From assembly GCA_903884235.1 (NCBI GenBank), contig CAISEB010000019.1:1-46260 (forward strand): 46,260 bases of DNA. Direction: 5' to 3'. This stretch comes from an uncultured Pseudomonadota bacterium (lineage in GTDB: Bacteria; Pseudomonadota; Gammaproteobacteria; Steroidobacterales; Steroidobacteraceae). Under the pieces are notes generated by a model, which saw only the letters and a list, made by a program, of their open reading frames with translations, was not told the origin of the DNA and ran no database searches. Both the position numbers and the translations under genes were made by a program. Below are positions 23 through 39,240 of the stretch, in pieces (the stretch's first letter is position 1; every line of letters begins with the position of its first letter).

Positions 23-325
23 ATGAGGAAGCCGAGACGTAATCATTCCGCGGCGTTCAAGGCGCGGATAGCCCTGGAAGCGATTCGGGGCGAGAAGACG
101 GTGGCGGAGATCGCATCGCACCATGAGGTTCATCCGAACCAAGTGACGATGTGGAAGACGCAGGCGCTGGAGAACCTGGTCGGGATTTTCGGCGGCAAGA
201 CGATCGCGGACGACGGCAAGGAGCAAATCCGGGAGCTGCGCGAGAAGGTCGGCGAGCTGACGATGGAACGCGATTTTTTAGAAGGCGCGCTCGGGAAGCT
301 CCCCGGCCTGAGCGGCAAGCGTTGA
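23..325 (+). CDS. IS3-family transposase OrfA (helix-turn-helix subunit)
   Basis: This 100-residue protein has the standard start of IS3-family OrfA: a basic N-terminus (RRNHSAAFKARIALEAIRG), then a helix-turn-helix with HPNQVTMWK (about residues 35-45), then a leucine-rich coiled-coil stretch (residues 70-95) used for multimerisation. It binds the IS ends. Alone it usually acts as a regulator; joined to OrfB by -1 frameshifting it forms the active transposase. The ATG at 23 follows a purine-rich GGAGGGA. The frame ends at 325, beyond the frameshift site, so about 15 residues are unique to the unshifted product. Confidence 0.9.
   Translation: MRKPRRNHSAAFKARIALEAIRGEKTVAEIASHHEVHPNQVTMWKTQALENLVGIFGGKTIADDGKEQIRELREKVGELTMERDFLEGALGKLPGLSGKR
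274..280 (+). other. Programmed -1 frameshift heptamer T_TTT_TTA
   Basis: Read in the OrfA frame, positions 274-280 are exactly X_XXY_YYZ (T TTT TTA, with TTT and TTA as zero-frame codons). A -1 slip here puts the ribosome in the frame that is open to 1149. The fused product would be about 375 residues: 86 from OrfA, ending Asp-Phe-Leu, then Arg-Arg-Arg of the OrfB frame. Frameshifting of this kind is how IS3-family elements make their transposase. No downstream pseudoknot was worked out. Confidence 0.75.
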
Positions 326-1149
326 TTGATCGGGGTTCTGAGGTTGCGGTGTCGCGCCAGGCGGAGCTGCTCGACCTGAGCCGGTCGAGCGTCTATTACG
401 CGCCGCGCCCGTTGCCGGAACGGGACCTGAGGCTGATGCGGCGGCTGGACGAGCTGCACCTGAAGTGGCCGTTCTACGGGACGCGCAAGCTGACCCGTGA
501 GCTGCAGGACGAAGGGCACGCGGTCGGCCGGCGGCACGTGACGACGCTGATGCGACGGATGGGCATGGAGACGATCTACCGCAAGCCGCGCACGAGCATC
601 CCGGCGCGGCAGGCGGCGATCAAGCCGTACCTGCTGACGGGTTTGGTGATCGACCGGCCTAATCAGGTCTGGGCGGCGGATCTGACGTATATCCCGATGG
701 CGCATGGCTTCCAGTACCTGGTTGCGATTATCGATGTCTGGAGTCGCAAGGTCATGTCCTGGCGGGTGTCGAACACGATGACGCCGGACTTCTGCGTCGA
801 GGCCTTGCAGGAGGCTCTGGCGGAGCACGGCAAGCCAGAGATATTCAACACGGACCAGGGATCTCAGTTCACGAGCGACGACTGGACGAACGAATTGAAG
901 GCGGCGGGCGTTCAAATCAGCATGGACGGCAAAGGTCGGTGGATCGACAACGTGTTCATCGAGCGACTGTGGCGCAGCGTGAAGTACGAGAACGTCTACC
1001 TCAAGGCGTACGAGACCGGATCGGAACTGCGTCGTGGCCTGGCCGAGTACTTCGAGTTCTACAACGCCGAGCGAAGCCATCAGGCGCTGGACTACCAGAA
1101 GCCGGATGACGTTTACTACGGTCGTCCGGCGCTGAAGGCCGCGGCATGA
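280..1149 (+). CDS. IS3-family transposase OrfB (DDE integrase core), expressed by -1 frameshift
   Basis: OrfB supplies the catalytic domain of the IS3 transposase. After an HTH_21-like region ([16 protein letters not shown], then [11 protein letters not shown]) comes the rve retroviral-integrase fold. Its DDE residues are the Asp in WAADLTYIP, the Asp in [11 protein letters not shown] and the Glu in [12 protein letters not shown], with the usual [14 protein letters not shown] tail. The start given is the first codon read after the -1 slip. The same frame is open from an ATG at 151, but no separate ribosome binding site is evident and the fusion is the expected active product. All catalytic residues are present and no stop interrupts the frame, so the element may still be active. 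Confidence 0.88.
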
Positions 1150-1305
1150 TCGAGGTCGAGGAATCCGAAGAGCTTCTGACGCTACGCGTCAGACCGCGGA
1201 TGCCGAAGACGATTGACGAAGAGCAAGGACCAAGAAATCATCATCAACAGGGCTGGCAGATCCACTTAGCCGAAGAAGAAATCTGTCCTAAGAACCGAAG
1301 CCACC

Positions 1306-2121
1306 CGTCTCCACCCCTTCCTGATCGAGGGGTGGCGCAAGGAGTGCCGCCAGGCAGGCACCAACCCCCGCACGATTAACCGGAACCTTCAGCGTCTTCG
1401 GGCGGCCGTCCAGAAGGCGGTCGAGTGGAAGCTCCTCACCGAACATCCATTCGCCGGCGTCAAGCCGCTCAAGGCGGACAAGGGCGGCATCGTCCGTTAC
1501 CTGAGCGCAGAGGAGGAGGTCGCCCTCCGCCAGGCGCTTCTCGATCGAGAGGCGAAGTCGCGAAGGGCGCGGGAGCGATTCAACGTGTGGCGCGAAGCCC
1601 GGCACGAAGACGCGCTACCACTTCGCACTGAGGTCTACGTCGATCACATTCAGCCGCTTACGCTCGTTGCCCTGAACACAGGGCTTCGGCGCGGCGAGCT
1701 GTTCAGTTTGATCTGGCGGGACGTGGACCTCGCCGGGAAGGTACTGACAGTCCAAGGTAGCAGCGCGAAGTCCGGTCAGACGCGGCGCGTGCCGCTCAAC
1801 GCCGAGGCCGTTGAGGTCCTGACCGCCTGGCGAAAGCAGGCCGCGGACCATTCGGCTGGCGCCTACGTATTCCCAGGAGAGGAGGGCGCCCGCCTGAACA
1901 ACGTTAACAGGGGCTGGCGCACTGCCTGCAAGTTCGCGGGGCTCACCGATTTCCGGTTCCACGACTGCCGGCACCACTTCGCCAGCCGGCTTGTCCAGTC
2001 GGGCACTGACCTCAACGTCGTGCGCGAGCTTCTCGGGCATGCCGACCTGACGATGACGCTTCGGTACGCCCACCTGGCGCCCGGCAACATGGCGGCTGCC
2101 GTCGAGCGGGTGGCCCGCTGA
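1306..2121 (+). pseudogene. Tyrosine recombinase/integrase, 5' end removed by the IS
   Basis: The frame is open from the IS junction to TGA at 2119-2121. It reads the rest of a SAM-like core-binding domain (FLIEGWRKECRQAG, TINRNLQRLRAAVQKAVEW) and a complete catalytic domain. Catalytic residues visible are Arg in NTGLRRGELF, the HxxR box in FHDCRHHFASRL, His in LLGHADLT and the nucleophile Tyr in MTLRYAHL (codon 2065-2067). The N-terminal arm-binding domain and any start codon are missing. A GTG at 1585 could start only a 178-residue catalytic fragment. This is the island integrase, and its position next to the left attachment site is typical. Inactivation would freeze the island unless another integrase acts in trans. 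Confidence 0.85.
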
Positions 2122-2844: not shown

Positions 2845-3132
2845 ATGACTCCCAACCGCCCCCGACCGGACCTTCGAACAGGCGCCGCCGCGGCCTATTG
2901 CACCGAGCAAGGGCGGACGACCTCCCCAAGCTTGCTGGAGAAGTCTCGGGCGCGCGGACCTGACGAGCACCGCGACCGCGGCCCCGATTTCTATCGTGAT
3001 GACCGGGGCGTCTGCTGGTATCCGCAAGATGCGCTCGATGTGTGGGTCGCCACATGGAAGGCCGCTCGCAGATTCCGCGAGCCCGGGACGGTACCAGCGA
3101 ACTTCGTGGCCCGCCACGACGAAGCGGCTTAA
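2845..3132 (+). CDS. Excisionase / AlpA-like small DNA-binding protein
   Basis: A 95-residue protein beginning MTPNRPRPDLRTGAAAAYC, followed by a short helix-turn-helix and a wing-like segment ending in DFYRDDRGVCWYPQDALDVW. The pattern (select an entry, then a residue/helix ending YxxxDLDxW-like) is that of MerR/excisionase-type HTH proteins such as AlpA and phage Xis. Such proteins bend attachment-site DNA for excision or switch on integrase. I chose the ATG at 2845 because GGAG lies about ten bases upstream; the frame is open further upstream to 2710 but that part overlaps the preceding gene. Its place between integrase and replication gene supports the assignment. Confidence 0.65.
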   Translation: MTPNRPRPDLRTGAAAAYCTEQGRTTSPSLLEKSRARGPDEHRDRGPDFYRDDRGVCWYPQDALDVWVATWKAARRFREPGTVPANFVARHDEAA

Positions 3133-3146
3133 CGAGCCAATCTGAA

Positions 3147-3983
3147 ATGTCGCGGTACCTCGAACCAAACTTCTGGCGGCAGGCCATTCGTGACCATGGC
3201 CCCAATTGCCCGACGACGCGCGCGACGCTTCTGATGCTGAGCACGTTTATGAACCGGGACGGCATCGCGTATCCGTCGCAGGAGACGTTGGCGGCGGCAA
3301 CCTGTTTCCACGCGAACTCCGTCCAGCGCGCAATCAAGCGGGCGAATTCAGAAGGTTGGATTTGGATCGAGTCGCAGAAGTCGGAAAAGGGGCGGGGCTG
3401 GCGGAAGAACACCTACATCGCGGTTGTGCCCGACACTGTGCCATTGAGCGCGAAGGCGCAGGCATCGTCGGACCGGCTCGCGGCCTACTACGGCTCCGTT
3501 GAGGGTCAAGGTGCCACTCCGCAAGTGGGACCTCATGATAATCGTCCCACTCTAGAAGTGGTGCGTCAGCCAGAGATCGCCGCGACCCTTACCGTAACGG
3601 AACACGCTCAGGTCCCACACGAGACCTTGCGAGGTGACACATCTGAGGGCTCGTGGTGCCACACCAGGGGTGGCGAGGCGCCACATCAGGAGTGGCATAA
3701 GTCTTCTCTTAAGCTCTCAGAAGAAGCTCTAAGAACTGAAGGGCACGCGCTGACGCGACGCGCCTCCCCCGTGAAGACGGCGAATCGAATCGCGAGACCG
3801 AAGACCGACGAGAGACTCGACAGCGACATCGCACAGGTGATCGCCGTGGAGCCGGCCTTTCGCCTCGTGGACATCGCCAAAGCCGTCGGCGAGCACGACA
3901 TCGAGCGGGTGCGGCAAAGGCTCGTGCAGATGGCGGCGCACGAACAGGCGCCGGTGGTAGCCGTAGGGGGTGGTCGTGGTTGA
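3147..3983 (+). CDS. Winged-helix replication-initiator-like protein with an internal origin
   Basis: This 278-residue protein has an N-terminal helix-turn-helix of the replication O/RepA type: TRATLLMLSTFMNRDGIAYP, SQETLAAATCFHANSVQRAI and GWIWIESQK form recognition helices and wing (about residues 25-90). The middle (about 120-195) has low-complexity composition because the DNA there is a run of 22-bp repeats, and 22 is not a multiple of three. The C-terminus (about 200-278) is basic then helical (DIAKAVGEHDIERVRQRLVQM). Lambda O has the same layout: a DNA-binding N-terminus, iterons inside the gene, and a C-terminus that recruits the helicase loader. The start ATG at 3147 lies 14 bases after the previous stop. 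Function is inferred from layout and the HTH, not from a full domain match. Confidence 0.65.
   Translation: MSRYLEPNFWRQAIRDHGPNCPTTRATLLMLSTFMNRDGIAYPSQETLAAATCFHANSVQRAIKRANSEGWIWIESQKSEKGRGWRKNTYIAVVPDTVPLSAKAQASSDRLAAYYGSVEGQGATPQVGPHDNRPTLEVVRQPEIAATLTVTEHAQVPHETLRGDTSEGSWCHTRGGEAPHQEWHKSSLKLSEEALRTEGHALTRRASPVKTANRIARPKTDERLDSDIAQVIAVEPAFRLVDIAKAVGEHDIERVRQRLVQMAAHEQAPVVAVGGGRG
3511..3699 (+). repeat. 22-bp palindromic iterons (putative replication origin)
   Basis: Six copies of a 22-bp unit start at 3511, 3544, 3612, 3634, 3656 and 3678. The last four are head-to-tail with an exact 22-bp period. The unit is half-site GTSCCACW, five bases, then half-site AGTGGSAY, so each is itself an inverted repeat. 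Best copies are 3511-3531 (GTGCCACT / AGTGGGAC), 3544-3564 (GTCCCACT / AGTGGTGC) and 3678-3698 (GCGCCACA / AGTGGCAT); 3656-3676 is near-perfect in the core. In 3612 and 3634 only the left half is well kept. They lie inside the initiator-like gene, as in lambda ori, and are probably its binding sites. Confidence 0.75.
3697..3740 (+). other. AT-rich patch with 13-bp tandem repeats (putative DNA unwinding element)
   Basis: Only 16 of these 44 bases are G or C, in a strongly GC-rich setting. The patch directly abuts the last iteron. It holds two 13-bp units, AAGCTCTCAGAAG at 3711-3723 and AAGCTCTAAGAAC at 3724-3736, differing at two positions. Iterons followed by an AT-rich region with short tandem repeats is the usual design of iteron-type origins. 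Confidence 0.55.
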
Positions 3984-4297
3984 TGCCGCCGCTATCAACT
4001 GGCGCGTCGTTCCCGTCCGGTTCGGCCAGGCGATCCGGAATGACGCTGGAAACGTAGAGCGCTCGGGTTCGCTTGATAGCGCGGGACGCTGGAAATATCG
4101 GGGAGCGAGCGGGCTCCGTGCCGTCGACCGAGCGCCAGGTAGTGCTCCGTGCTCCACCGGTGCTCCAGCGGCTGCCGAGTCAGGCCGAGCTATCCCAGTA
4201 GATGCCCCGCGTTTGCACCCGGACTGCCGGGATGATGCCCCAGCCGTGCGCCCGAGTTGCCTCGCGCTCACCCTTGCGAACCGATCCTGAGCCGGCT
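3984..4297 (+). other. 314-base stretch without a convincing gene; GTGCTCC repeats
   Basis: A GTG-started frame of 106 codons (3970-4290) overlaps the end of the initiator gene and runs through here, but its composition is poor and nothing in it is recognisable, so I do not call it. The stretch holds three copies of GTGCTCC at 4142, 4149 and 4160 on the same strand. Because the terminase operon starts just downstream, this gap is a candidate packaging (pac/cos) or control region; that is inference from position only. Confidence 0.35.
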
Positions 4298-4699
4298 GTG
4301 GCGCGTAAGCCGAAGAACCGCGCGCTGGTGACGATCCCCGGCTGCTGGCAGCCCGATTTTGTGGAACGTCTCGATCGCCGCTTCAAGATTGCGCACGCGG
4401 TGCGCGACCGCATTGCCGCGATCGAGTCCGACATTGGCGGTCGCGACACGCTCTCCTACGCGCGCCGTTGTCTGGTGCGCCGACTGGTCTGGCTCGAGGC
4501 GGTCGTCGAGACATTCGAGCAACGCCTGGCTGCGGGTCAGACCGTTGACATGGGTCAGTACACCCAGGCTCTCAACACGCTGCTCGGTTTGCTGCGATCG
4601 GTCGGATGGGAGCGCAAGCCACAGAACCTCCGCACCTTGCGCGACGTGATGAACAGCCCCTCGTCGCCGCCTCGCGCCCTGCAGGAGCCGCCGCCGTGA
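4298..4699 (+). CDS. Conserved phage-type small protein at the head of the terminase operon
   Basis: The product, about 133 residues and helical, reads fMet-ARKPKNRALVTIPGCWQP, then DFVERLDRRFKIAHAVRDRI and YARRCLVRRLVWLEAVVET. It resembles small proteins I associate with terminase-bearing elements in proteobacteria. A small-terminase or packaging-adaptor role is possible but unproven. I picked GTG 4298 because the conserved-looking part starts there; ATG 4202 is in frame but has no ribosome binding site and adds a Cys/Pro/Arg-rich leader that looks non-coding. Confidence 0.55.
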   Translation: MARKPKNRALVTIPGCWQPDFVERLDRRFKIAHAVRDRIAAIESDIGGRDTLSYARRCLVRRLVWLEAVVETFEQRLAAGQTVDMGQYTQALNTLLGLLRSVGWERKPQNLRTLRDVMNSPSSPPRALQEPPP

Positions 4700-5351: not shown

Positions 5352-5824
5352 GCGTCGACGGCCGTCTCGAGCGCCTGTACGGCGACGCCCGCCGGCATCA
5401 GCTCAACGTCGAGGTGAGGGCCACGTGTAGCCGATCGGGCGTCGTCGATGAGCCGATGATCCTGGCGAAGCAGGCGGAGGCGGCCAAGGCGCACGAGGCT
5501 GTCTGGCTTGAGAACCCCGCAATGACTGTTGCCGAGGACGTTGAGCTTCGAGCGGCTCGCGGTCGTCGGGGGCTGACGCCGAACGAGGCGGCGGCGCAGG
5601 CCGACCAGATCATGCACGACCTGCGGACGCCGGTGTACGGCACCCGAGCGGTCGTTCGGGCGGTCGTCGCGGCAGAGAAGGCGGCCAACTCCAAGACGCC
5701 GGTGCTGAATCGGATGCTCAACGCCGGGGCGGGCAATTCCCCGGCGCTGGCACGGCTTCGGCTCGGTGCTCGGGCGGACCAGCTCGCAGCGCATCGACCG
5801 GCCGGGAAGAAGCTGACGCCGTGA
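5348..5824 (+). CDS. Unknown helical protein in the terminase operon
   Basis: A 158-residue soluble protein, rich in Ala and Arg, with no recognised motif. It overlaps the gene before it (ATGA at 5348) and the gene after it (GTGA at 5821), so the three are translated as a coupled unit. The central segment (AAQADQIMHDLRTPVYGTRA) is helical. Its close coupling to the large terminase-like gene suggests a partner in DNA packaging, but nothing in the sequence proves it. Confidence 0.65.
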   Translation: MSVDGRLERLYGDARRHQLNVEVRATCSRSGVVDEPMILAKQAEAAKAHEAVWLENPAMTVAEDVELRAARGRRGLTPNEAAAQADQIMHDLRTPVYGTRAVVRAVVAAEKAANSKTPVLNRMLNAGAGNSPALARLRLGARADQLAAHRPAGKKLTP

Positions 5825-7935
5825 AACCGCTGTTCGAGTTCCTGGCTGACCCGGACTTGTTCGGCGCGACGTTTGCCGGGCCTAGCTATTCGGCCTGGCG
5901 GACGGTCGCGAAGATCCTGGACGGGCTGCCGCTCGATGCTGGCGAGCTGGAGCTGTACCGAGCGATCACGGGGCGGGATGCGCCACCGAGCGAGGCGTTC
6001 ACCGAGGCTTACATCATCAAGCCGCGCCGGGCCGGTGGCACGCAGTTCGCGGCGGCCCTGGCGCTGCACAGCGCGCTGACGGACCAGCGGGCGAAGCTCG
6101 GCCCTGGTGAGGTCTCGGTCACAGCTCTGATCGCGGTCGACCGACGCCAGGCACGCCAGGCGCTCGGATACGTCAAGGGACTGATCGCTGGCTCGCCGAT
6201 GATCGCGGCGGAGGTGACGAGCGAGACGCGGGAGAGCATCGAGTTTCGGCATGCGGCAAGGCTCGAGATTCACACCGCGAGCTTTCGCAGCACGCGCGGC
6301 TTCTCGTTCGCCGCAGTGGTGCTCGATGAAATGGCGTTCTTCCGCAGCGACGAGTCGGCGAACCCGGACACCGAGCTGGTGCGCGCAGTTCGGCCTGGTC
6401 TCGCCAACCTGGGCGGCCGGCTGCTCGGCCTGTCATCGCCGCACGCGAAGCGCGGGCATCTGTACGAGATGCACCGCGAGCACTTCGGCAAGGATTCGGA
6501 CGTGCTGGTGCTCCAGGCGTCGCACTCGATCCTGAACCCGACCATCAGCCAGAAGATTATCGACCGGGCGATGCGCGAGGACCCGATCGCCGCGCGATCC
6601 GAATGGTTCGGCGAGTTCCGCAGCGACGTGTCGCAGTTCCTCGATGACGAGCTGGTCGACCAGGCAATCGTCGAGCGCCGGCGCGAGCTGCCAGCCAGGG
6701 CGGGCGTGATCTACCGCGGCTTCGTCGACCCGTCCGGTGGCCGGCACGATGCGATGACGTTCGGCATTGCGCACGCGGAAGGGGAGCGAATCGTCCTCGA
6801 TCGCCTGCTGGTGCGCGCGCCGCCGTTCGCGCCCGAGCGGGTAGTCGCCGAGTTCGCGGCGGTCGCTGCCGAGTTCGGGCTGTCGAGCGTCACCGGCGAC
6901 GCATACGCGGGCGAGTGGGTCGTGGCCGCATTCTCCAGCGCCGGCCTTCGGTATGAGCCCGCCGAGGCTGACAAAAGTTCGATCTTCCTCGAGACGCTGC
7001 CGCTGTTCACGCAGGATCGGCTCGAGCTGCTCGACGTGCCGGTGCTCTCAACGCAGCTGCGTCTGCTCGAGCGCAAGCCGCGGGCGAACGGTCGGGCGGA
7101 CCTCGTGGATCACCCGCCCCGCGGGAACGACGACGCAGCCAATGCCGCGCTCGGCGCCGCGTGGCTGGTGGCCCGCCAGGCGGAGCGCCAATCTGTGATT
7201 GACCCCGAGTTGGCGATCGCCGCGACCCAGCGACCGGCTCCTGACGTGCGATTCGCGCCGCGCATCCTTGGCGCGGTGGTCGACGGCGACCGGTTGCAGA
7301 TTGCCAGGCGCCTCGGGCGGCTCGCGCTCGCGCCGATGAGCGAAACCGGCAATCCGCTGCACCTGGCGGGCCTCATCGCGGCCGAGGCCAGCCGGTGGAC
7401 CGCGTTCGCGATCTACGTCGCCGACTCCTCGCCAGGGCAGCCCGTCCTGGCCGCATTGCGCAGCCTCGGCTATTCGGTGTTCGCGGTCGACCTGTTTGGC
7501 GATGCGTACCGCGGCAACTTCGGAGACCTGCGCACCGAACTCGCGTTCAAGCTGGCTGACTGGCTGCCGCACGCGAGCGTGCCGGCCGCACTACTGCATG
7601 ACCTCTCCGCGATCGGATTCACGACGCGCCGCGGCACGCCCGAGCTGCTCGAGTCGGCGATCGGCGTCGTGGACGCGCTCGCGGTCACGCTCCTCGACCG
7701 CAGCAGCTACCAGGACCCGCGCACCGTCATGCAAAGCACAAACATCACGCGCGCGATCAGCGACGACGGCCGATATGGCGGGAGCACAGCTCCACGGCCA
7801 GCGTCCGGCCTCGTGCGTCCGTACCACCTCGGAGACCTCGAGCCTTCGCTCGAGCGCGACGGCTGGAGCCGCTGTTTGCCCGCCGAGGAAGGTTCGCGCT
7901 CGCTGACTGATTACGACGTTTTGAGTCGAGACTGA
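5821..7935 (+). CDS. Large-terminase-like protein with altered Walker A and extra C-terminal module
   Basis: The first 450 of 704 residues follow the phage large-terminase plan. Walker A position is 67-74 (KPRRAGGT), Walker B is VVLDEMAFF (D169-E170), a coupling segment is LLGLSSPHAKRGHLYEM, and the RNase H-type nuclease has D303 (FVDPSGG), D360 (VTGDAYAGEW) and D437/D438 (RGNDDAANA). The usual Walker A reads GRRxGKS; here Lys is Gly (G73), a loss that should weaken ATP binding unless K67 substitutes. Residues about 525-625 add a second piece resembling the end of a terminase nuclease fold (NFGDLRTELAFKLADWL, LLHDLSAIGF, VVDALAVTLL) without clear catalytic acids. Family members are usually near 450-500 residues. 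GTG start overlaps the upstream stop. Confidence 0.75.
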   Translation: MKPLFEFLADPDLFGATFAGPSYSAWRTVAKILDGLPLDAGELELYRAITGRDAPPSEAFTEAYIIKPRRAGGTQFAAALALHSALTDQRAKLGPGEVSVTALIAVDRRQARQALGYVKGLIAGSPMIAAEVTSETRESIEFRHAARLEIHTASFRSTRGFSFAAVVLDEMAFFRSDESANPDTELVRAVRPGLANLGGRLLGLSSPHAKRGHLYEMHREHFGKDSDVLVLQASHSILNPTISQKIIDRAMREDPIAARSEWFGEFRSDVSQFLDDELVDQAIVERRRELPARAGVIYRGFVDPSGGRHDAMTFGIAHAEGERIVLDRLLVRAPPFAPERVVAEFAAVAAEFGLSSVTGDAYAGEWVVAAFSSAGLRYEPAEADKSSIFLETLPLFTQDRLELLDVPVLSTQLRLLERKPRANGRADLVDHPPRGNDDAANAALGAAWLVARQAERQSVIDPELAIAATQRPAPDVRFAPRILGAVVDGDRLQIARRLGRLALAPMSETGNPLHLAGLIAAEASRWTAFAIYVADSSPGQPVLAALRSLGYSVFAVDLFGDAYRGNFGDLRTELAFKLADWLPHASVPAALLHDLSAIGFTTRRGTPELLESAIGVVDALAVTLLDRSSYQDPRTVMQSTNITRAISDDGRYGGSTAPRPASGLVRPYHLGDLEPSLERDGWSRCLPAEEGSRSLTDYDVLSRD

Positions 7936-8254: not shown

Positions 8255-8764
8255 ATGAGCAAATCGAAAGGCATTGTTGGAACGCCGGTCAACTTCATCG
8301 GTCCGGCCGGTGCAGCTCTCGGCAACGCAGAAGGCCGCACGCCGGGCGTTCCGGCGGGATACAGCGGCACCGTTAATCGGCAGTTCGAGGGCGATCAGTC
8401 GCAGCAGCTGAACCCGCGCTCGGGCACGCCGTTGCAGGACCGAGACAGCAATCCGGACCAGTACATGCGCATAGCCTCCAGTGGTCGTTACGGCGTGAGT
8501 CCCGGCGCCGGCGGAGTCGACATGAACAATCCGAATTCCAACGGCAACGGCGTCGCGTTCGACAAAATCAATCGCGCCAAGGACTACACGCCGTACAACG
8601 CGCCGGCGATGGACTCCCCCGTGCGGGACGGCAAGCAGATGCCGCTGCCGGATGCCTCGATCAAGACGAACGCAATCCGCAACGGCGTGGGCGAATCCTT
8701 CGCAGCCAACGAGGCGACGCCGGACCAGCTCGTGAAGGTCGGCGGTGTGATGTCGCGGGATTGA
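8255..8764 (+). CDS. Unknown Gly/Asn/Pro-rich protein
   Basis: A 169-residue hydrophilic protein with many Gly, Asn, Pro and Asp (for example GVDMNNPNSNGNGVAF), no membrane segment and few bulky hydrophobics, so it may be largely disordered or an extended structural protein. The ATG at 8255 follows AGGAG (8242-8246). The frame is open upstream but that overlaps the previous gene in another frame. I do not recognise a family. Position after the terminase-like gene makes a virion or packaging accessory role possible. Confidence 0.6.
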   Translation: MSKSKGIVGTPVNFIGPAGAALGNAEGRTPGVPAGYSGTVNRQFEGDQSQQLNPRSGTPLQDRDSNPDQYMRIASSGRYGVSPGAGGVDMNNPNSNGNGVAFDKINRAKDYTPYNAPAMDSPVRDGKQMPLPDASIKTNAIRNGVGESFAANEATPDQLVKVGGVMSRD

Positions 8765-8949
8765 CTCGTGCGCAGCCCGCCTGGCGCACGCTGACGGTCG
8801 GGGAGTGGTTCCTGACCGTCGGCCCGAGAGTGCGCGGGCGGTGCTGGCTGCTGGTCTATCGCGGCTCGATCGTGGCGGCCGGGCACTCGTTCCGCGAGCT
8901 GCTCCGGTGTGCGATCCGCAACGGCGTCGAGCGCATCCGTCAGGGCTGA
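8761..8949 (+). CDS. Small unknown protein, TTG start overlapping upstream stop
   Basis: A 62-residue basic protein with two tryptophan/leucine-rich segments (WRTLTVGEWFLTVGPRVRG, CWLLVYRGSIVAAGHSFREL) that look like a small beta sheet and a helix. The start is inferred as TTG at 8761, overlapping the preceding stop (TTGA). There is no other start with a better site. Function unknown. Confidence 0.5.
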   Translation: MTRAQPAWRTLTVGEWFLTVGPRVRGRCWLLVYRGSIVAAGHSFRELLRCAIRNGVERIRQG

Positions 8950-9041
8950 ATATGACAACGCCCCGGCAGGGCGGAGCGTGTTCCCCAGTATACCAAAACG
9001 CCATATTCGGCGCTCGGGTAGGATTGGGCTGGAGGTTCGCT

Positions 9042-9686
9042 ATGAACAGCAAAGCGCCCGGCCCGACTGGCTTCAAAGTCCGGCAGCTCCTCACCAAAGT
9101 CAGAACACTCGCGCTCAACTCACCGCTCGCAAAGCGGCTGCTGGCCAACTCGATGCCGCTGCCCGCCGACGCGCCGGTGAGTCCGGAGGACGTGCGGGAC
9201 CTGACACCCGAACGTGCGCTCGCAATGGTCGAGGCTCTCGATCCGGCTGCGAGCTGGAGCTTCTACGCTCAGCTCCCGGTATCCACTCAGGAATTCATCG
9301 CGGCGAAGGTCAGCACTAAGCGGTGGGGCTCGTTGCTCATCAACGAGATCCACGCACAAGCCATCGCGAGCGCGAAGGCGCCAGCGACGGCGCAACCGAC
9401 TGCCGTACGCCTGCGTGCCGGATCGATTGAGTTCAAACGGATGCCGGTTACGTGCCGCGGCTGCGGGTGGCACGGCGTCGGGAGCGACACGAAGGTCAGC
9501 GAGCTATTCGATAGCGGCATCACCGAGCACGTCTGCCCGGCATGCGCTGCGGACATCGCGATCACCACCTGGCCGACTCTCGCTGAATATCACGCGCACT
9601 GGAATGAGTTGAGCGGAGCCGAGCGCGAGTACGTGTTCCTCATCGAGAAGGCAAGCCACGAGTCAGAGGCCAAGCCTTCGCACTGA
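9042..9686 (+). CDS. Unknown protein with C-terminal zinc-ribbon-like motif
   Basis: A 214-residue protein. The N-terminal two thirds are helical with no recognised family (RQLLTKVRTLALNSPLAKRL, then LTPERALAMVEALDP). The C-terminal part has two CxxC pairs, CRGCGW and CPACAA, about 30 residues apart, the spacing of a zinc ribbon. Such modules bind nucleic acid or protein partners. The ATG at 9042 follows GGAGG (9031-9035), a strong site, after a 92-base gap, so this gene may start a new transcript. Confidence 0.65.
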   Translation: MNSKAPGPTGFKVRQLLTKVRTLALNSPLAKRLLANSMPLPADAPVSPEDVRDLTPERALAMVEALDPAASWSFYAQLPVSTQEFIAAKVSTKRWGSLLINEIHAQAIASAKAPATAQPTAVRLRAGSIEFKRMPVTCRGCGWHGVGSDTKVSELFDSGITEHVCPACAADIAITTWPTLAEYHAHWNELSGAEREYVFLIEKASHESEAKPSH

Positions 9687-9728
9687 ACGGCTGCGAAGCT
9701 GATCGCGAACAGACATGGAGGTGCGACC

Positions 9729-9944
9729 GTGAATGACCGCGAGTTCTGGCTGGTCGGTGATGACCCCGCCTCGATCGACGATGGCACGCTGGGCGTGCGG
9801 TTCTTCCCGGACGGCACCAGGCCGGTGACGCCTTCCTCGATCCGGGCCGAAGGTGAGCGGATCTCAGAGGCCGACTGGTCCGCCAGGGTGGTCGCTCGCC
9901 GCGCTTCGATCGCAGCCGGGAAAGCGTCCAAGGCCGGAACTTAG
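9729..9944 (+). CDS. Small unknown protein
   Basis: A 71-residue acidic-then-basic protein (REFWLVGDDPASIDDG at the start, RASIAAGKASKAGT at the end). Start is GTG 9729 with GGAGGTG just upstream (9718-9724), a strong site, so the frame is likely real despite its size. No family recognised. Directly after its stop a 7-bp stem (TTGCCGC / GCGGCAA, 9949-9970) could be a weak transcription end, but it lacks a T-run. Confidence 0.5.
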   Translation: MNDREFWLVGDDPASIDDGTLGVRFFPDGTRPVTPSSIRAEGERISEADWSARVVARRASIAAGKASKAGT

Positions 9945-10125
9945 ATCGTTGCCGCCTGATACCGCGGCAATGGCCGGTGGGCGACTGAGTTTCCGAATCT
10001 AATGAGTGAAGCGCACGGTTAAACGTTGCGACCGTCTTGTGTTCGCCACGCGTTTCAAACGTGCCTGGTGGGGCGAATGTGCCAAAGCGAAGTTTTGCCG
10101 CGCTCGGCGATTGAGGTTTTCCAGA

Positions 10126-11256
10126 ATGGTTGAGCGACGCCGGCCTCTGTTTCTGCCACGCCCCCCGGAGGGTTGTGACGACGCGTACCGCGTACTGTGT
10201 CAACCGAGCAGTCCCCGCTCCGTCTGCGCGCGGGAGCTATGCGAGGAATTCTGGACCGATTTCCGCGACCTCGCGGACGCAGCCTTCCTGGATCGCCTTC
10301 CCTTCGAGTTCCACCAGCGCTGGTTCGAGATGTACTTGGGTACGGCGCTGCGCCGCGCCGGGCTAGATGTTTCGGCGCGGAAGCCCGGCCCGGACTTGCA
10401 AGTGCTGCACGGGGAGCAGCGCATCCATATCGAGGCGATCGCTCCTAGCGCCGGAAACCCACTGCATGCGGACGCCGTACCGGAGCCCGTGTACCGAGAT
10501 GCAGACGGCGAACTGATTGCTGTGCAAGTGCCACACGACCAAATCACGCTTCGAATCGCGCACGCCTTCCGTGCGAAGGCCGGCGTGTTCGACCGTTACA
10601 GGCAGAGAGCCTATGTGCGGGAAGGGGAGCGGTGCATTATCGCAATCAATCTTCGAGCGATCCCGCACGCGTGGGCGGACGCCGCCGAGTGCTGGTATCG
10701 CGCGCTCTACGGCGTCGGAGATCGGTTCGTGGCAATCGATCCTGCCGGCGGCGCGATCACGGCCGGGCGCAATCACCGAGCACTACTCCATCGTGTGGGA
10801 GGGGCAGCGGAAGACGTCGCTCCGCTACTGCGACAGGAGAACTGCTTGATTTCTGGCGTCCTGGGGTCGTCTGCCGACGTGGGCAACGTCCCGAATCTGC
10901 CTGGCGATGACTTCATGCTCATGCCCCACGCATCGCCGAATGCTCCGTACCCACAAGGACTGTTGCATCTCGGAGGAGAATTGGTGCTTCACGCGGACGG
11001 TGGCGAACGGTGGAATGTGGAGGCCATTGACTACGGCGCCCACGAGACGCGCGGGCCGGAGCCGATCGTGGCGGAGTTGGACGGCGTGGCAATCGAGGGG
11101 GAATGGGCGGTCGAAGGGCGGATTCTTTCCGTCAGCGTAGGTGGGTCGCACTGTGACGTTCCTCTGGCTGGAGGAGACAACCCAGAGGAGTCGGCTCGAG
11201 CTATCGCAATCGAGATCGCACGCGCTCGCGGGTCGCGGGGGGAGACGCGAGAGTGA
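10126..11256 (+). CDS. Possible PD-(D/E)xK-fold protein, first gene of a three-gene cassette
   Basis: A 376-residue protein. The segment around residues 60-110 reads FHQRWFEMYLGTALRRAGL, then KPGPDLQV, then RIHIEAIAPSAG. A helical Glu (E68), a Pro-Asp (D90) and a beta-strand Glu (E103) follow the order of PD-(D/E)xK nucleases, but the final Lys is replaced (IEAIA), so catalysis is doubtful. The C-terminal 150 residues contain repeated beta-like stretches of unknown kind. I chose ATG 10126 (TTGAGG upstream) over an in-frame GTG at 10006. Its stop overlaps the next start (GTGA). This starts an accessory cassette unlike the packaging genes before it; a defence or toxin role is possible but unproven. 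Confidence 0.6.
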   Translation: MVERRRPLFLPRPPEGCDDAYRVLCQPSSPRSVCARELCEEFWTDFRDLADAAFLDRLPFEFHQRWFEMYLGTALRRAGLDVSARKPGPDLQVLHGEQRIHIEAIAPSAGNPLHADAVPEPVYRDADGELIAVQVPHDQITLRIAHAFRAKAGVFDRYRQRAYVREGERCIIAINLRAIPHAWADAAECWYRALYGVGDRFVAIDPAGGAITAGRNHRALLHRVGGAAEDVAPLLRQENCLISGVLGSSADVGNVPNLPGDDFMLMPHASPNAPYPQGLLHLGGELVLHADGGERWNVEAIDYGAHETRGPEPIVAELDGVAIEGEWAVEGRILSVSVGGSHCDVPLAGGDNPEESARAIAIEIARARGSRGETRE

Positions 11257-12002
11257 ACGAGTTGACCAAGGTGACTACCGCAGACCCACACTGGCAGCGC
11301 GAGCTCCCAATATTCACGCGGTTCCTTGCGTGCGTTCCAGACCTCGGAGTACGTGCCGATTCCATTCGTCGCGGCACGGGCTTCGACGCTGCGTGCACCA
11401 CCGACGCCGGAGCGGAGCTGGCGTTCGAGCTTACCGAGATCACCGACCAGCCGCTCGCAGCGGCAATGACGCCCCTCCTTGAGGTTCCGGTGCTGCTCAA
11501 CGACCGGCTGCGTGCGGGTGCCGATTCCGACTCGCGCGCGATTCAGCAGCGGTACGCTCACCACGATATCGCCGTGACCCTCTGCCCTGGCGCAGGCGTG
11601 CGCGCTGTCCGGCGCGTAGTTCCAAGGTTCTTCGCCTGGTTGGCCGCAAGCGACCCGAGGGTAGTTGCCGCGTCCGAGCCGCCGGTGGAGCTGCGGCATG
11701 TAATCCGGCGCGTCGATCCGCGATACGTTCCGGGTATTAGCGGTCTGTGCTTCCACGTTCCTGCCGGCCGCGCGATATGGATTGGCGAGGAGTCGGTGGC
11801 GACGATCCGCGCGAAGTTCGAAAAGGACTACCCGCGCGGAATTGGTTTACAGCTACTAGCCTACTTCCACCGACAGCCCGCTCGGCCGGACGCCGTGGCC
11901 AATGTTTGCGCCTTCCTCGATTCGGTCATGCCCGACGAGTCTTTCGAGCGCGTCTGGATCTACGACGACCCCGAACGGCGGGTTCTACTTCGCCATCCCT
12001 GA
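11253..12002 (+). CDS. Unknown protein, second gene of the cassette
   Basis: A 249-residue protein whose GTG start overlaps the preceding stop, implying translational coupling. The segment GFDAACTTDAGAELAFELTE has an Asp followed by a strand with ExxE, loosely like the nuclease-like core seen in its upstream neighbour, so the pair could be distant relatives or partners. The C-terminus has an aromatic-rich strand (ERVWIYDDPERRVLL). No named family recognised. Confidence 0.6.
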   Translation: MNELTKVTTADPHWQRELPIFTRFLACVPDLGVRADSIRRGTGFDAACTTDAGAELAFELTEITDQPLAAAMTPLLEVPVLLNDRLRAGADSDSRAIQQRYAHHDIAVTLCPGAGVRAVRRVVPRFFAWLAASDPRVVAASEPPVELRHVIRRVDPRYVPGISGLCFHVPAGRAIWIGEESVATIRAKFEKDYPRGIGLQLLAYFHRQPARPDAVANVCAFLDSVMPDESFERVWIYDDPERRVLLRHP

Positions 12003-12022
12003 AACTTTGTGAGGGCGGCCAA

Positions 12023-12547
12023 ATGAGCGACGATCTGCAGAACTTCCGAGCGTGGTACGTGGCAGCCCTTGAGTCGCTTTATCCGAGTCGCGATGCCGGC
12101 ATCGCCACGCTGATGATCTCCTTGCCGTTGCTCGAGCGATATCTGCGACAGCGGACAGGGCTCACTCCAGAGCAGAGCTTGGATGACCGCTGCATGGACA
12201 CGCTGCGGACGATCTTCCCTGAAATTCCTGACGCCGATACCGCCAGGAGTTTCTGGGCGGTTTACCGCAATGGATTCCTGCACCAAGCGACGCTTTCTCA
12301 GCGAACTCGTCGAGGCAACGCCCTGCCTGAGGGCTCGCTGACACATGACGTGGAATTGGCGGTGACGGTGCAACCGGATGGCAGCTTCGTCCTTCACCCC
12401 GTCCTATTCAGTCGGCGGGTCGTCCTCGCGATAGAATCTGACTTCCTCGTCTTTGCGGCAGTTGGAACGACAGCGCCTCAACTGCCGAGAGTCGTCCCGT
12501 CAACGTTATTGGGCACGTCTCAAATTGTCCTGAGCACAAAAGCATGA
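12023..12547 (+). CDS. HEPN-like protein (RNxxxH motif), third gene of the cassette
   Basis: A 174-residue protein with a helical N-terminal half. Helix 1 is FRAWYVAALESLY, followed by LLERYLRQRTGL, and then FWAVYRNGFLHQATL, which contains R82-N-G-F-L-H87. That is exactly the RNxxxH pattern of HEPN domains, many of which are metal-independent RNases or antitoxin-partnered toxins. The C-terminal part (residues 110-174) is beta-rich and may be a separate domain. It lies 20 bases after the second cassette gene, with a GAGGGCGG site. A catalytic HEPN function is an inference from one motif plus helical context. Confidence 0.55.
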   Translation: MSDDLQNFRAWYVAALESLYPSRDAGIATLMISLPLLERYLRQRTGLTPEQSLDDRCMDTLRTIFPEIPDADTARSFWAVYRNGFLHQATLSQRTRRGNALPEGSLTHDVELAVTVQPDGSFVLHPVLFSRRVVLAIESDFLVFAAVGTTAPQLPRVVPSTLLGTSQIVLSTKA

Positions 12548-12639
12548 CGCCCACGGCTGACCACGCTATTGGTTGCGCGGCCTATTGCAGGCGCCGCCGC
12601 TAGGAGGCGGGCCACTTAGACCTATCCGGGAGAGGGAAT

Positions 12640-13140
12640 ATGAAGGTTTGGCGCTTGGCGATTCCGTTCGCAGCATTAATTCTAGTTAACTCGGAAGCTT
12701 GTTTTTCTGACGAGCTTAAGGCGGGAATTCTTCTCAAATCGATCGACCACCTTCACAGCCTGACCCAGATTTCAAAGGAGCTTACGCAGTCAGCCGAGAA
12801 CATAACGGAGATGACTGGCAGGTCTAGTTGCGACCGGGCATGGTTAGCGGCACAAAACGCTGTTCACGCCGCGACAGGTGGGATGAATGCCGTTGATTCG
12901 GTGGTCGGACCGCTACTGATTCTCGCCGGCATGAAGGCCGCGGAGGACCAAAAGCTCGCTGAAAACGTGGTCGGCTTCGAGATCAACACCGCGCTACCGG
13001 TAGTCGAAAATGCCATTGCGCAGGTGAACAATTCGGCGGCGACGATCACCTCTCCATCGGTCGCCCTAGAGGTCCAGCGGGCGAGGGATACGCTCATCAA
13101 AGCCCGTGACGAGCTTAAGAAAGCGCAGTCAGACCTTTAG
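12640..13140 (+). CDS. Exported protein of unknown function
   Basis: A 166-residue protein with an N-terminal signal peptide: basic MKVWR, hydrophobic LAIPFAALILV, then a polar cleavage region near NSEACFSDE. Cysteine follows but the residues before it do not make a clean lipobox, so secretion to the periplasm is likelier than lipidation. The mature part is alpha-helical and Ala/Asn-rich with two cysteines (SSCDRAWLAAQ) and ends in a charged helix (RARDTLIKARDELKKAQSDL). Base composition looks less GC-rich than the host genes, suggesting transfer. Preceded by GGGAGAGGG. Confidence 0.65.
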   Translation: MKVWRLAIPFAALILVNSEACFSDELKAGILLKSIDHLHSLTQISKELTQSAENITEMTGRSSCDRAWLAAQNAVHAATGGMNAVDSVVGPLLILAGMKAAEDQKLAENVVGFEINTALPVVENAIAQVNNSAATITSPSVALEVQRARDTLIKARDELKKAQSDL

Positions 13141-13168
13141 CAGCATTCAAGAGGGCGGGGACGAAAGT

Positions 13169-13182
13169 GCGGACCGGTCCGC
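13169..13182. repeat. Perfect 14-bp palindrome GCGGACCGGTCCGC
   Basis: The 90-base gap between two convergent genes holds this perfect dyad with no loop and no T-run, so it is not a standard terminator. It could be a protein site or chance in GC-rich DNA. Confidence 0.4.
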
Positions 13183-13230
13183 CGAGTCCCGGATCACGTC
13201 GCAGAAGGCGCCGCACGATCGAGTGGTGCC

Positions 13231-13611
13231 TCACCGAAACTTAGTGACAGAGATCGGAACTCCAGCCAGCAGCGGATTCGACCATTGGCCCGTCACGGGC
13301 TCGGTAATCCCTGAGCTTGTCACTACGCGGTAGCAACTCGCTCCGGGGAATATCGCGAGCGCAATAGCCGGGTCACCGAGCTGCTCTGTGCGGGCGGGTT
13401 TGCCACGGGCGGCTGGTTTGCGGCGGTGCCCTTTCAGGGAATCGCCGATGGTCGCCGTCCACTCCTCGCCGCTGTGAGTCCAGGTGATGGAGTAAATGCG
13501 CTCCGCAATTGGCAAGGGGTGCCAGTCACATCGCCGAGCGTAATCGGCGTACGCGGCTTCCTTTTGGTCCGGCGCTGCGCCTGGTACGAAGAATTCTGGG
13601 GGGCTTTCCAT
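13231..13611 (-). CDS. Conserved hypothetical protein at the right end of the island
   Basis: A 126-residue protein, starting MESPPEFFVPGAAPDQKEAA. It has a pattern I associate with a family of short unknown proteins in proteobacterial mobile regions: ERIYSITWTHSGEEWTATIG, then DPAIALAIFPGASCYRVVT, then WSNPLLAGVPISVTKF. The alternating hydrophobic strands suggest a small beta-barrel-like fold. The frame is open upstream to 13875 but the conserved-looking part starts at the ATG 13611-13609. It is the only leftward gene in the island and lies next to the inferred attachment site. No function known. Confidence 0.65.
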   Translation of the reverse strand: MESPPEFFVPGAAPDQKEAAYADYARRCDWHPLPIAERIYSITWTHSGEEWTATIGDSLKGHRRKPAARGKPARTEQLGDPAIALAIFPGASCYRVVTSSGITEPVTGQWSNPLLAGVPISVTKFR

Positions 13612-13796
13612 GCCTGGCTCCGCAGGTGATCGCGGGCCAATTGTCCCACGGCGTTTGAAGAGCGGGACGTGTTTCCAAATCTGTTTCCAATCTGAAGGAA
13701 GTAGACCGTATCGAACCGTAACAAACGGGGGAAGGAGACCTGCTAAGACTCTGATTTGCCGAGGTTCGATTCGGTCACTTACGACATTCCCCGGCC

Positions 13797-13826
13797 TGCA
13801 AATCCGTGTACGCCGGTTCGATTCCG
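13797..13826 (+). other. tRNA-Cys 3' fragment, inferred attR of the island
   Basis: Thirty bases match the stretch of a bacterial tRNA-Cys from the GCA anticodon (TGCAAATCCG) through the variable region to the T-arm (CGCCGGTTCGATTCCG). No 5' half, D-arm or matching acceptor stem is present, so this is not a tRNA gene. Phage-type integrases use exactly this 3' part of tRNA genes as att core. The fragment reads left to right, so the element should lie to its left and the intact tRNA-Cys beyond the left edge of the window, next to the integrase. The direct repeat itself cannot be seen here. Confidence 0.65.
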
Positions 13827-13957
13827 CATGCTCATCGAAGCGCTCAAGGGACCTGGTGGGGGCGTCGCGTGGCAAGGTAGAGCCGTGCGGGGATCGAAAT
13901 TCCAGATGTGAGGACGATTAGTAGTCATAAAAAAATAGAGGAGATGTTCCTGGAGAG

Positions 13958-13985
13958 TTGACAGATCGTTTATAAATGCTAATCT
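13958..13985 (+). promoter_or_regulatory. Sigma-70-type promoter for the DGQHR gene
   Basis: TTGACA (13958-13963), 16-base spacer, TAATCT (13980-13985) in an AT-rich stretch, 40 bases before the start codon at 14026. The -35 box is a perfect consensus. The region 13612-14025 otherwise holds only the tRNA-Cys fragment and no gene I can support. Confidence 0.6.
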
Positions 13986-14025
13986 GCATTCCTGGCATGT
14001 CGCCACAGAAAATTTTGGATGATAT

Positions 14026-15468
14026 ATGTACCCCGCAGACGCAACTGGAACCCCGACGCCTCTTAGCTCTCTCGATGATCTGGTCGAGCAGGGGACGGCC
14101 ACTGAGAAGCCTGAAAAGGTCTTCATGGGGCACAACCTCGGGTTTCGCTCGTTCTTGATGTCGATGCCTCTCCGTGACTTCTTCGAGATGTCGGCTGTCT
14201 CTAGCGATCCAGGGAACGACCCTTCGCTTGTGTCGCAGCGGAAGCTCGACCCGGCACACGCGCAAAAGCTTGCGGTCTACATTCTCAAGGGTCTGGTTCA
14301 GGCTTCGATCCATCGTCGCGGGGATATCGAGAAGAAGCAGGTGCCGGCCGAGTGGCTGCGGCTCCAGGACGTCGTCGGAAAGCAGCCCTACATGACCTTG
14401 CAGCCGATCGTCGTGAATATTCGGGAGTGCAGCCCGGCGGGTAGCAATCTTCGCGGGCATCGAATGCTGACGACTGACAACGAAACCGCCGCATTCAAAG
14501 TGTTCTTGTCGCAGCGTCATGTGCTGTGGGTCGTGGACGGACAGCATCGTCGTAAGGCGATGGAGTATGTGTTCGATTTTCTGGAGCAGGTTCGCACGAC
14601 GGGCAAGTACCCGAAGAAAGGCGGCTTGGTTGGCGCCGGCGAGGACTCGATCACCACTGACGGAGCCGCACTTTGGGAGGAGTGCTTCAACGTCGCGCGA
14701 GCTTTCTGCACGATTGCAGTCGAGGTGCACCTGGGTCTCTCCGTCGAGCAGGAGCGGCAGCTGTTTCACGACCTCAACCGGCTCGGGAAGAAGGTAGAAA
14801 CAAGCCTCGCGCTTCAATTTGATAGCTCGAATCCAGTCAATCTGTTCATCAAGGAACGGTTGATTAGCGATCTCGGCTTGAAGGTGGCGGAGAAGGACCA
14901 GAAGGATTGGCACAAAGATACGGGTGACTTGTCGCGCAAGGACGTCGTTGCGATCAACGCAATCCTCTTTTTGAACAAGACCAACATCAATGGTGCGACG
15001 CCGGCGGTGGTTAGTCCGCGAGTCGATGTGGCGTACCGGTTCTGGGAGGCTGTGTCGGCTATCCCTGGCATTGATGAGGATCAGGCACGCGAGAAGACCG
15101 TAGCTGCTCAGCCCGTCGTGCTGAAGGCGCTGGCCAAGCTCGCGTTTGACTTCGGGTTCAGTTCCCGGCGTGCTGATAACGCCGACGACCTACTCGAAAT
15201 TCTATTGAACGGAATCACGGACCTCGACTTTAGGCATGACAATCCGATGTGGCGCTACTTCGAGCTTGCGCCTGATCAGCGCGAGGCCGCGTTGCCTGGG
15301 CTCGGTGCGTACCTCGCCACAACGGACGGGTCGACGAATCGCGACATCGGCGGGTTCCAGGGCGGATTCATGCGGTTCGGTGCGAAGCACAACGATATTT
15401 ACCCGATCCTCGGCGACATGATTCGTTGGAAGCTCGCGCTGCCAAATCGGCACGCTCAGGCGGAATAG
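14026..15468 (+). CDS. DGQHR-domain (DndB-like) protein, solitary
   Basis: A 480-residue protein with the signature WVVDGQHRRKAM (DGQHR at residues 171-175) and the family's FHDLNRLGKKVETSLAL segment. DGQHR proteins include DndB, the regulator of DNA phosphorothioation operons, and stand-alone relatives found in defence islands. DGQHR resembles the nucleotide-binding box of ParB-like folds. No dndA, C, D or E genes are nearby, so this is an orphan and its DNA-modification role is not established. It has its own promoter, sits between a tRNA-Cys fragment and tRNA-Pro, and its base composition is less GC-rich than the chromosomal genes to the right, all signs of acquisition. It is longer than typical DndB (about 350-400 residues). 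Confidence 0.8.
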   Translation: MYPADATGTPTPLSSLDDLVEQGTATEKPEKVFMGHNLGFRSFLMSMPLRDFFEMSAVSSDPGNDPSLVSQRKLDPAHAQKLAVYILKGLVQASIHRRGDIEKKQVPAEWLRLQDVVGKQPYMTLQPIVVNIRECSPAGSNLRGHRMLTTDNETAAFKVFLSQRHVLWVVDGQHRRKAMEYVFDFLEQVRTTGKYPKKGGLVGAGEDSITTDGAALWEECFNVARAFCTIAVEVHLGLSVEQERQLFHDLNRLGKKVETSLALQFDSSNPVNLFIKERLISDLGLKVAEKDQKDWHKDTGDLSRKDVVAINAILFLNKTNINGATPAVVSPRVDVAYRFWEAVSAIPGIDEDQAREKTVAAQPVVLKALAKLAFDFGFSSRRADNADDLLEILLNGITDLDFRHDNPMWRYFELAPDQREAALPGLGAYLATTDGSTNRDIGGFQGGFMRFGAKHNDIYPILGDMIRWKLALPNRHAQAE

Positions 15469-15623
15469 CTGGCCGATAGGAATCGCCGCACGGTGCCTCG
15501 ATTGGGCGCCGCGCGGCTAATTCTTCAGTAGTTGGGCCGATTCACGTGGACCACCCGTGGATCACGGCCACTTGAATGATCGCCGAATCGGCGACCCTTC
15601 GAGATCAAAACAGCTTGATTTAG

Positions 15624-15700
<77 letters not shown>

Positions 15701-38640: not shown

Positions 38641-39240
38641 TCAGAACGGCAGGCCGTGGGCGTGACCGCCCATGCACATCAGCATCGGGATCGAGAGGAT
38701 GAAGTTCGTGCGCGAGGCGTACAGCGCGACCTTGCGCGCCTTCGCCTTTTCCTCGTCCGTCGCGGCGACGATGCCGAGGATCTTCTTCTGGTTCGGCCAG
38801 ATCAGAACCCAGACGTTGAAGAGCATGATCGTGCCGAGCCAGGCGCCGACGCCGATCGCGCGCTCCGTCGGGGCGAGCATGAACGCGTTGTGGATCGAGC
38901 CGTGGTAGAAGAACAGCGTGTACGCGCCCGACAGCCAGGTCACGACGGCGGCCCAGCGGAACCACGCGAGGGCGGTGGGCGCGATGTACTTCGAGATGCC
39001 GGCGCCGCCCGGGCCACCCTTGTCCGCGGCCGCGGCGGCGAGCCCGGGGACCTGGACGACATTGAAGTAGTACAGCAGGCCGATCCACATCACGCCAGAG
39101 ACGAGGTGCAGCCAGCGGACGATCGCCGCATGGTTCACGCCGAGCTCGCCGCCGGCGACGGCGGTCAGCGCGAGGCTGAGGACGATGGCGAGCACGAAGC
39201 CCGTCGTAATGGAGCCCTTGATGGAGGTGAGTGGATTCAT
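38641..39240 (-). CDS. PuuD-like urate hydroxylase-family membrane protein
   Basis: A 199-residue protein with about five membrane segments. The pattern WLHLVSGVMWIGLLYYFNVV, WFRWAAVVTWLSGAYTLFFY, GAWLGTIMLFNVWVLIWPNQ and NFILSIPMLMCMGGHAHG matches the membrane part of PuuD-type proteins, with a conserved His in helix 2. PuuD proteins that oxidise urate carry an added cytochrome c domain, which is absent here. No purine-degradation genes are near, so the role is uncertain; a heme-binding electron carrier is possible. Confidence 0.7.
   Translation of the reverse strand: MNPLTSIKGSITTGFVLAIVLSLALTAVAGGELGVNHAAIVRWLHLVSGVMWIGLLYYFNVVQVPGLAAAAADKGGPGGAGISKYIAPTALAWFRWAAVVTWLSGAYTLFFYHGSIHNAFMLAPTERAIGVGAWLGTIMLFNVWVLIWPNQKKILGIVAATDEEKAKARKVALYASRTNFILSIPMLMCMGGHAHGLPF

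Follow-up and report, generated by a model that had tools for sequence, protein, structure and literature searches.

The locus raises the question of what a cluster of palindromes is doing inside an open reading frame. The cluster lies at positions 3511-3698 of the stretch of DNA analyzed here (46,260 bases, referred to as the window), where a motif scan finds copies of one palindromic unit within the open frame 3147-3983. We consider it likely that these repeats serve as iterons, in a replication origin that is embedded in the gene for its own initiator and built in the manner of lambda O/ori. In-gene iteron origins with a cognate initiator are known; the unusual aspect is the satellite-like carrier.

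The repeat cluster and its gene

The features of the gene are listed below, with mismatches counted against the unit GTSCCACW-N5-WGTGGSAC.

3147..3983, + strand: O-like replication initiator, 278 aa (phrog_391, 4.8e-14; PF13730 HTH_36, 3.6e-9)
3210..3362, + strand: winged-helix DNA-binding domain, residues 22-72 (HTH_36 match)
3511..3531: iteron 1, GTGCCACT-CCGCA-AGTGGGAC, perfect against the unit and the sole site with 0 mismatches in the assembly
3544..3564: iteron 2, 2 mismatches
3612..3619, + strand: half-site, left arm only
3634..3641, + strand: half-site, left arm with 1 mismatch
3656..3676: iteron 3, 3 mismatches
3678..3698: iteron 4, 2 mismatches
3691..3740: AT-richest 50 nt (60% AT), candidate DNA-unwinding element, overlapping the end of iteron 4
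3792..3941, + strand: C-terminal helical domain, residues 216-265, the confident part of a structure model (block means 56-87), with no family match

The first-pass annotation had counted six copies of the full unit, which mismatch counting reduces to four two-armed palindromes (3511, 3544, 3656 and 3678) and two left half-sites. Site 3612 has 5 mismatches to the full unit, and site 3634 is absent from the scan list at ≤5 mismatches, its left arm alone matching. The same annotation placed four units in exact 22-bp tandem; this is true of the left-arm starts at 3612, 3634, 3656 and 3678, and among full palindromes of the last two only. The distance from 3511 to 3544 is 33 bp. Counting both strands, the window has six exact GTSCCACW half-sites, five of them within the cluster (+3511, +3544, +3612, +3656 and -3524). 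The four full palindromes lie in reading phases 1, 1, 2 and 0. Because the copies occupy all three phases, a peptide repeat is ruled out as the cause of the iterons, and the earlier proposal that the repeat is kept at the DNA level and not for the protein stands.

Allowing ≤1 mismatch, the 4.12-Mb assembly contains two occurrences of the unit, the perfect site at 3511 and one on another contig. A reversed-pattern control also yields two places; an isolated site is thus no less common than expected by chance, and the weight lies on the clustering. Pairs of unit sites 5-35 bp apart were found on none of the viral contigs, and among genome contigs on six (L096-L101) from a single MAG, Omnitrophota STD1_16. 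In the two of these that were inspected (L096 and L098) there is an inverted repeat, each arm 26 nt long, which probably belongs to a dispersed repeat family, and the Omnitrophota matches were rejected as an origin.

The protein matches phrog_391, annotated as 'replication initiation O-like', over positions 17-162 of 298, and several further 'replication initiation' PHROGs match it as well. Together with the HTH_36 match, this bears out the first-pass description of the gene as replication-initiator-like. Past position 162 of phrog_391 there is no match to a lambda-type C-terminus, and no P-type helicase loader was recognized among the island frames scanned; the protein is for these reasons classed from its sequence as O-like rather than as lambda O in the narrow sense. 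NCBIfam returned no match, and a profile of 11 relatives gave weak matches in the PDB to MarR/GntR winged-helix proteins (best E 0.0013). A single-sequence structure model of the whole initiator is poor (mean pLDDT 36.1) with the exception of approximately residues 216-265, which may be the helicase-recruiting part. The PDB search with the poor whole-protein model produced nothing at E ≤0.001, and that model was set aside.

Relatives of the initiator are scarce. Four genomes in a sample of 200 from the same family contain matches, its own genome included, and the best non-self match among them (1.2e-5) is from a genome of the same genus. No tblastn match was obtained in phages or plasmids, and a pattern-first search of viral and genome contigs, the reach of which is close relatives only, identified no homologues. 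With no close relative found, gene and repeats represent a new presumed initiator-iteron pair.

The AT-richest tract contrasts with an AT content of 38% for the gene 3147-3983, and is modest compared with the 76% of lambda. The iterons follow the winged helix and the AT-rich tract lies 3' of them, as the first-pass annotation had recognized in placing the repeats between the DNA-binding N-terminus and the C-terminus and comparing the design to lambda O/ori. According to the available text of PMC7466680, both elements of lambda lie mid-gene in O, the iterons first and the AT tract after them. GC skew, which had been proposed as a check, shows no clear switch at the initiator gene in 1-kb steps.

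Chance, controls and distant O-like genes

The cluster was evaluated with a motif-free detector (arms of 7, a reference palindrome with ≤1 mismatch, and copies with ≤3 mismatches within 230 bases of the reference) against synonymous-codon shuffles of the same gene, which leave the protein unchanged. For the initiator gene 3147-3983, 7 of 3000 shuffles score at least as high as observed. Three detector settings were tried, and significance for this gene varies with the setting: in an earlier version 0 of 40 shuffles reach the score, and at a looser setting 14 of 200 do, which is not significant (16 of 26 O-like genes have p<0.05 at that setting). Applied to lambda O (J02459) as a positive control, the detector returns exactly the four annotated iterons (39034-39118; 0/500 shuffles), and the AT peak of that gene (39123-39172) is located directly to their right. 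As a negative control, one of 13 other open frames of the island scores p<0.05.

The survey of relatives began from phrog_391 searches of 200 family, 396 order and 369 class genomes (overlapping sets), with matches in 20 (1e-5), 7 (1e-8) and 18 (1e-10) genomes, respectively. Loci L003 and L004 (internal stops), L007 and L008 (repeats of L001 and L002) and L009-L024 (16 of the 21 loci of one search, with translations that read as GntR-type regulators or wrong-frame) were dropped beforehand. The resulting set comprises 26 O-like genes, the window gene and 25 distant relatives. A significant palindrome cluster is present in 17 of the 26 (16/25 without the window gene) and missing from nine, L038 and L040 among them. 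Half-site sequence and palindrome size vary from gene to gene, and the layout is constant. By alignment, the clusters are mostly behind the HTH; in L034, which has a different N-terminus, it begins at residue 24. Of the 49 distances from one copy to the next in the 17 genes, 23 are 17-24 bp.

In 10 of the 17 genes (2.5 expected) the 50 nt richest in AT begin close to the right-hand end of the cluster, at -25 nt to +80 nt from it, an interval chosen post hoc with positions already seen; in one gene (2.4 expected) they lie just to the left of the cluster. The count on the right is 9/16 (2.4 expected) when the window gene is removed, and 7/14 (2.1 expected) when three genes with another N-terminus are removed. 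A changed repeat sequence with a preserved architecture in distant homologs fits co-divergence of initiator and iteron. These comparisons suggest that O-like genes of distant bacteria commonly have the layout of lambda O/ori, with palindromic iterons in the linker of a winged-helix initiator and an AT tract 3' of them, each gene having its own word. If so, the code by which HTH_36 domains recognize their iterons becomes a computable question.

One subgroup of relatives allows codon usage to be compared. Among L036, L038 and L040, unchanged residues (L, V, S, P, T, A, R and G) have identical codons in 47 of 55 cases in a 37-column linker, vs 98 of 234 elsewhere; L041 was aligned and left out of the count. 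Every pair reaches p<0.01 singly, but the same sequences recur among the pairs, which are not independent. Because codons are retained to this extent, the linker of this subgroup is, by codon comparison, held at the DNA level. L036 is the only one of the three genes to pass the cluster test.

Origin, operator or RNA structure

In the reading that we favor, a dimer of the N-terminal winged helix would bind each GTSCCAC(W)N5(W)GTGGSAC palindrome, and several dimers on the phased sites may assemble, by analogy with lambda, into an O-some-like complex. The AT-rich tract just 3' would then melt and the host replicative helicase would be loaded, perhaps through the small C-terminal helical domain. 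The protein stretch encoded by the iterons would be a tolerant linker. Replication from this origin would be that of the excised element, a phage-satellite-like island that measures at least ~17 kb and sits at the tRNA-Pro 3' end.

Lambdoid phages are an established case of an origin lying inside the initiator gene (PMC7466680, available text). The window gene shares with lambda O/ori an O-type initiator, palindromic iterons 20-24 bp apart in mid-gene behind the DNA-binding part, and an AT-rich tract on the 3' side. It differs in iteron sequence, in a longer inner spacing (a palindrome of 21 bp, vs a 19-bp inverted repeat in lambda), in the lack of a detectable lambda-type C-terminus and a recognizable P-like loader, and in its residence on a satellite-like island, whereas lambda is a full phage. 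The RepA_N plasmids also have the origin inside the initiator gene: the consulted portion of PMC5703833 describes for pSK41 an origin central in rep, with Rep boxes bound there by the N-terminal domain, and states that the protein stretch encoded by the origin is dispensable. These proteins, however, belong to another family, and pSK41 is a plasmid of Firmicutes.

The palindromes could instead be operators, bound by the HTH_36 protein or the product of the small upstream gene so as to regulate transcription across the initiator gene, with replication starting elsewhere or never; we find this improbable. The sites do resemble dimer operators, and the proteins weakly matched in the PDB by the family profile are common winged-helix regulators. 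The profile matches of the protein, on the other hand, are to replication initiators, and phased in-gene copies with an AT tract behind them are the known layout of the lambda origin. A promoter scan (0 found, vs 0.1 expected in shuffles) speaks neither way on this point. Less probable still, to the point of being hardly credible, is that the selected feature consists of hairpins in the mRNA, for example for translation control. A 206-nt region does fold better than 200 of 200 shuffles (z -3.3), and synonymous constraint in the relatives would fit as well, but copies of any single palindrome cross-pair as RNA. Moreover, complementarity suffices for RNA structure and the reuse of one half-site is unneeded, palindrome size and sequence vary between genes while the layout is constant, and Rfam has no match except the tRNA.

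The island and its relatives

The island features in the window are as follows.

23..1149, + strand: transposase frames at the contig edge, which we take to be IS3-like
1291..2121, + strand: tyrosine integrase frame, N-terminally truncated beside the IS (PF00589, 3.1e-33)
2845..3132, + strand: small gene between integrase and initiator, assigned by position; no family match
4202..4699, + strand: presumed small terminase subunit, the relatives of which adjoin a large terminase; no family match
5821..7935, + strand: large terminase subunit-like gene (phrog_2, 5.4e-18; no NCBIfam match)
10006..11256, + strand: defense-like cargo gene (PADLOC PD-T7-1, 8.5e-7, and PD-T7-5, 9.2e-6, weak; phrog_8571, 1.1e-12)
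14026..15468, + strand: DGQHR/DndB-like cargo gene (PF14072, 8.9e-31; phrog_36010, 4.1e-155; below NCBIfam cut-offs)
15624..15670: 47-bp attachment repeat with an exact second copy on another contig of this genome (C52:90856-90902)
15624..15700, - strand: tRNA-Pro (CGG), integration target

A 219-aa frame at 2121-2780, directly after the integrase, has no match to any family. The DGQHR/DndB-like gene adjoins the attachment site.

The attachment repeat corresponds to 47 bp of the tRNA-Pro 3' end. The window tRNA and the DNA to its right are matched in 14 of 15 genomes of the genus, and four of six relatives compared (G094, G128, G057 and G134) have, to the left of an intact tRNA-Pro, DNA that is colinear with the sequence left of the C52 copy. 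G128 has a nearly empty site: ~150 bp separate the end of the match from the tRNA, and on C52 ~0.85 kb separate it from the repeat; other DNA lies in between in G057 (~2.4 kb), G134 (~3 kb) and G094 (~6.5 kb). The remaining two, G152 (a 2.1-kb contig end) and G072 (with a second repeat of its own 27 kb away), match in the attachment repeat alone. Given the repeat and the colinear host flanks, the island most likely spans from C52:90903 through the contig break to window position 15623, and is at least 17,086 bp long if both contig ends belong together.

Characters of a satellite found here are the direct att repeats, an integrase (truncated) and the element's own replication gene, in which the initiator frame is open. 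No capsid or other virion structural gene was found in the frames scanned, which lie on the visible part of the island. PICI/SaPI and PLE elements are described in the accessible parts of PMC6092414 and PMC7145576 as having an integrase, a regulator, their own initiator with iterons, and integration at an att site; PICIs also have an AT-rich region, and some carry a small terminase gene. The window island has in common with them the integrase, an initiator with iterons and att-site integration. The differences are its large terminase and the location of the candidate origin inside the O-like gene, whereas in PICIs the origin is 3' of the initiator gene and in PLE it is in region NCR3 (same sources, same parts). 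The literature consulted (titles and abstract openings, mostly non-subscription) contained no report of a satellite with an O-like in-gene origin; the window island is a satellite-like element that may have one.

The first-pass annotation envisaged a mobile island that replicates when excised. The attachment repeat and the colinear flanks in relatives support the island, but self-excision is improbable for the present copy, which is probably stuck because its integrase frame lacks the N-terminal part and sits next to the IS. Elsewhere in the assembly, the IS has only a 59-bp match at 77%. The initiator gene could also be a decayed remnant with a former origin, on an island that is dead, a possibility compatible with an in-gene origin and one that we find unlikely without being far-fetched. 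The truncated integrase beside the IS is in its favor, as is the fact that two of the six sites are half-sites. Weighing against decay, the initiator and terminase frames are both open, the former with one perfect palindrome and three good ones, and an origin can survive a broken integrase.

Matches to the large terminase occur in 10 of 200 family genomes, its own included, and no relatives were found among viral contigs. Wider stretches were compared for nine of the 11 other terminase matches (L064-L072), with two weak ones left out. These loci resemble the window island in the related large terminase and, in seven of nine, in a relative of the 4202 frame, the presumed small terminase, just upstream of it. 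They differ in replication module, which is of the primase/helicase kind: five of six large frames near the terminase, in a test that covered six of the nine loci, contain AAA_25, PriCT_2, Prim-Pol or DnaB-N domains, and a profile built here detects no O-like gene in the nine stretches.

A sister island, L076 (G004 contig C60, from another genus), has an O-like gene with iterons of a different word (GTCGAAC/GTTCGAC) and tRNA-Pro (CGG) at the far end; no match to the terminase was found in it. Its integrase of 431 aa includes the arm-binding domain and is 55% identical to the window integrase over 261 aa. It also has a small HTH-like gene, the place of which is occupied in the window by the frame 2845..3132, with kinship judged by eye only. 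Since integrase and initiator are shared with L076 and the terminase with the primase islands, the window island looks like a mosaic of an L076-kind integrase and initiator with a primase-kind terminase pair. Tentatively, and with chances that we place somewhat short of even, satellite-like islands that share one terminase pair may exchange replication modules, the module here being an in-gene origin of the lambda type whose iteron word is its own.

Two further observations concern these elements. L076 encodes a large polyvalent protein, a frame of 1922 aa at 8518-14286 with LPD38 and inorganic pyrophosphatase-like domains. The tRNA-Pro 3' end is probably an integration hot spot: it is duplicated over 44-48 bp at 93-100% identity in several genomes of the genus (G083:C8, G114:C35, G105:C95 and G072), and on contig C30 of G072 it appears twice, ~27 kb apart.
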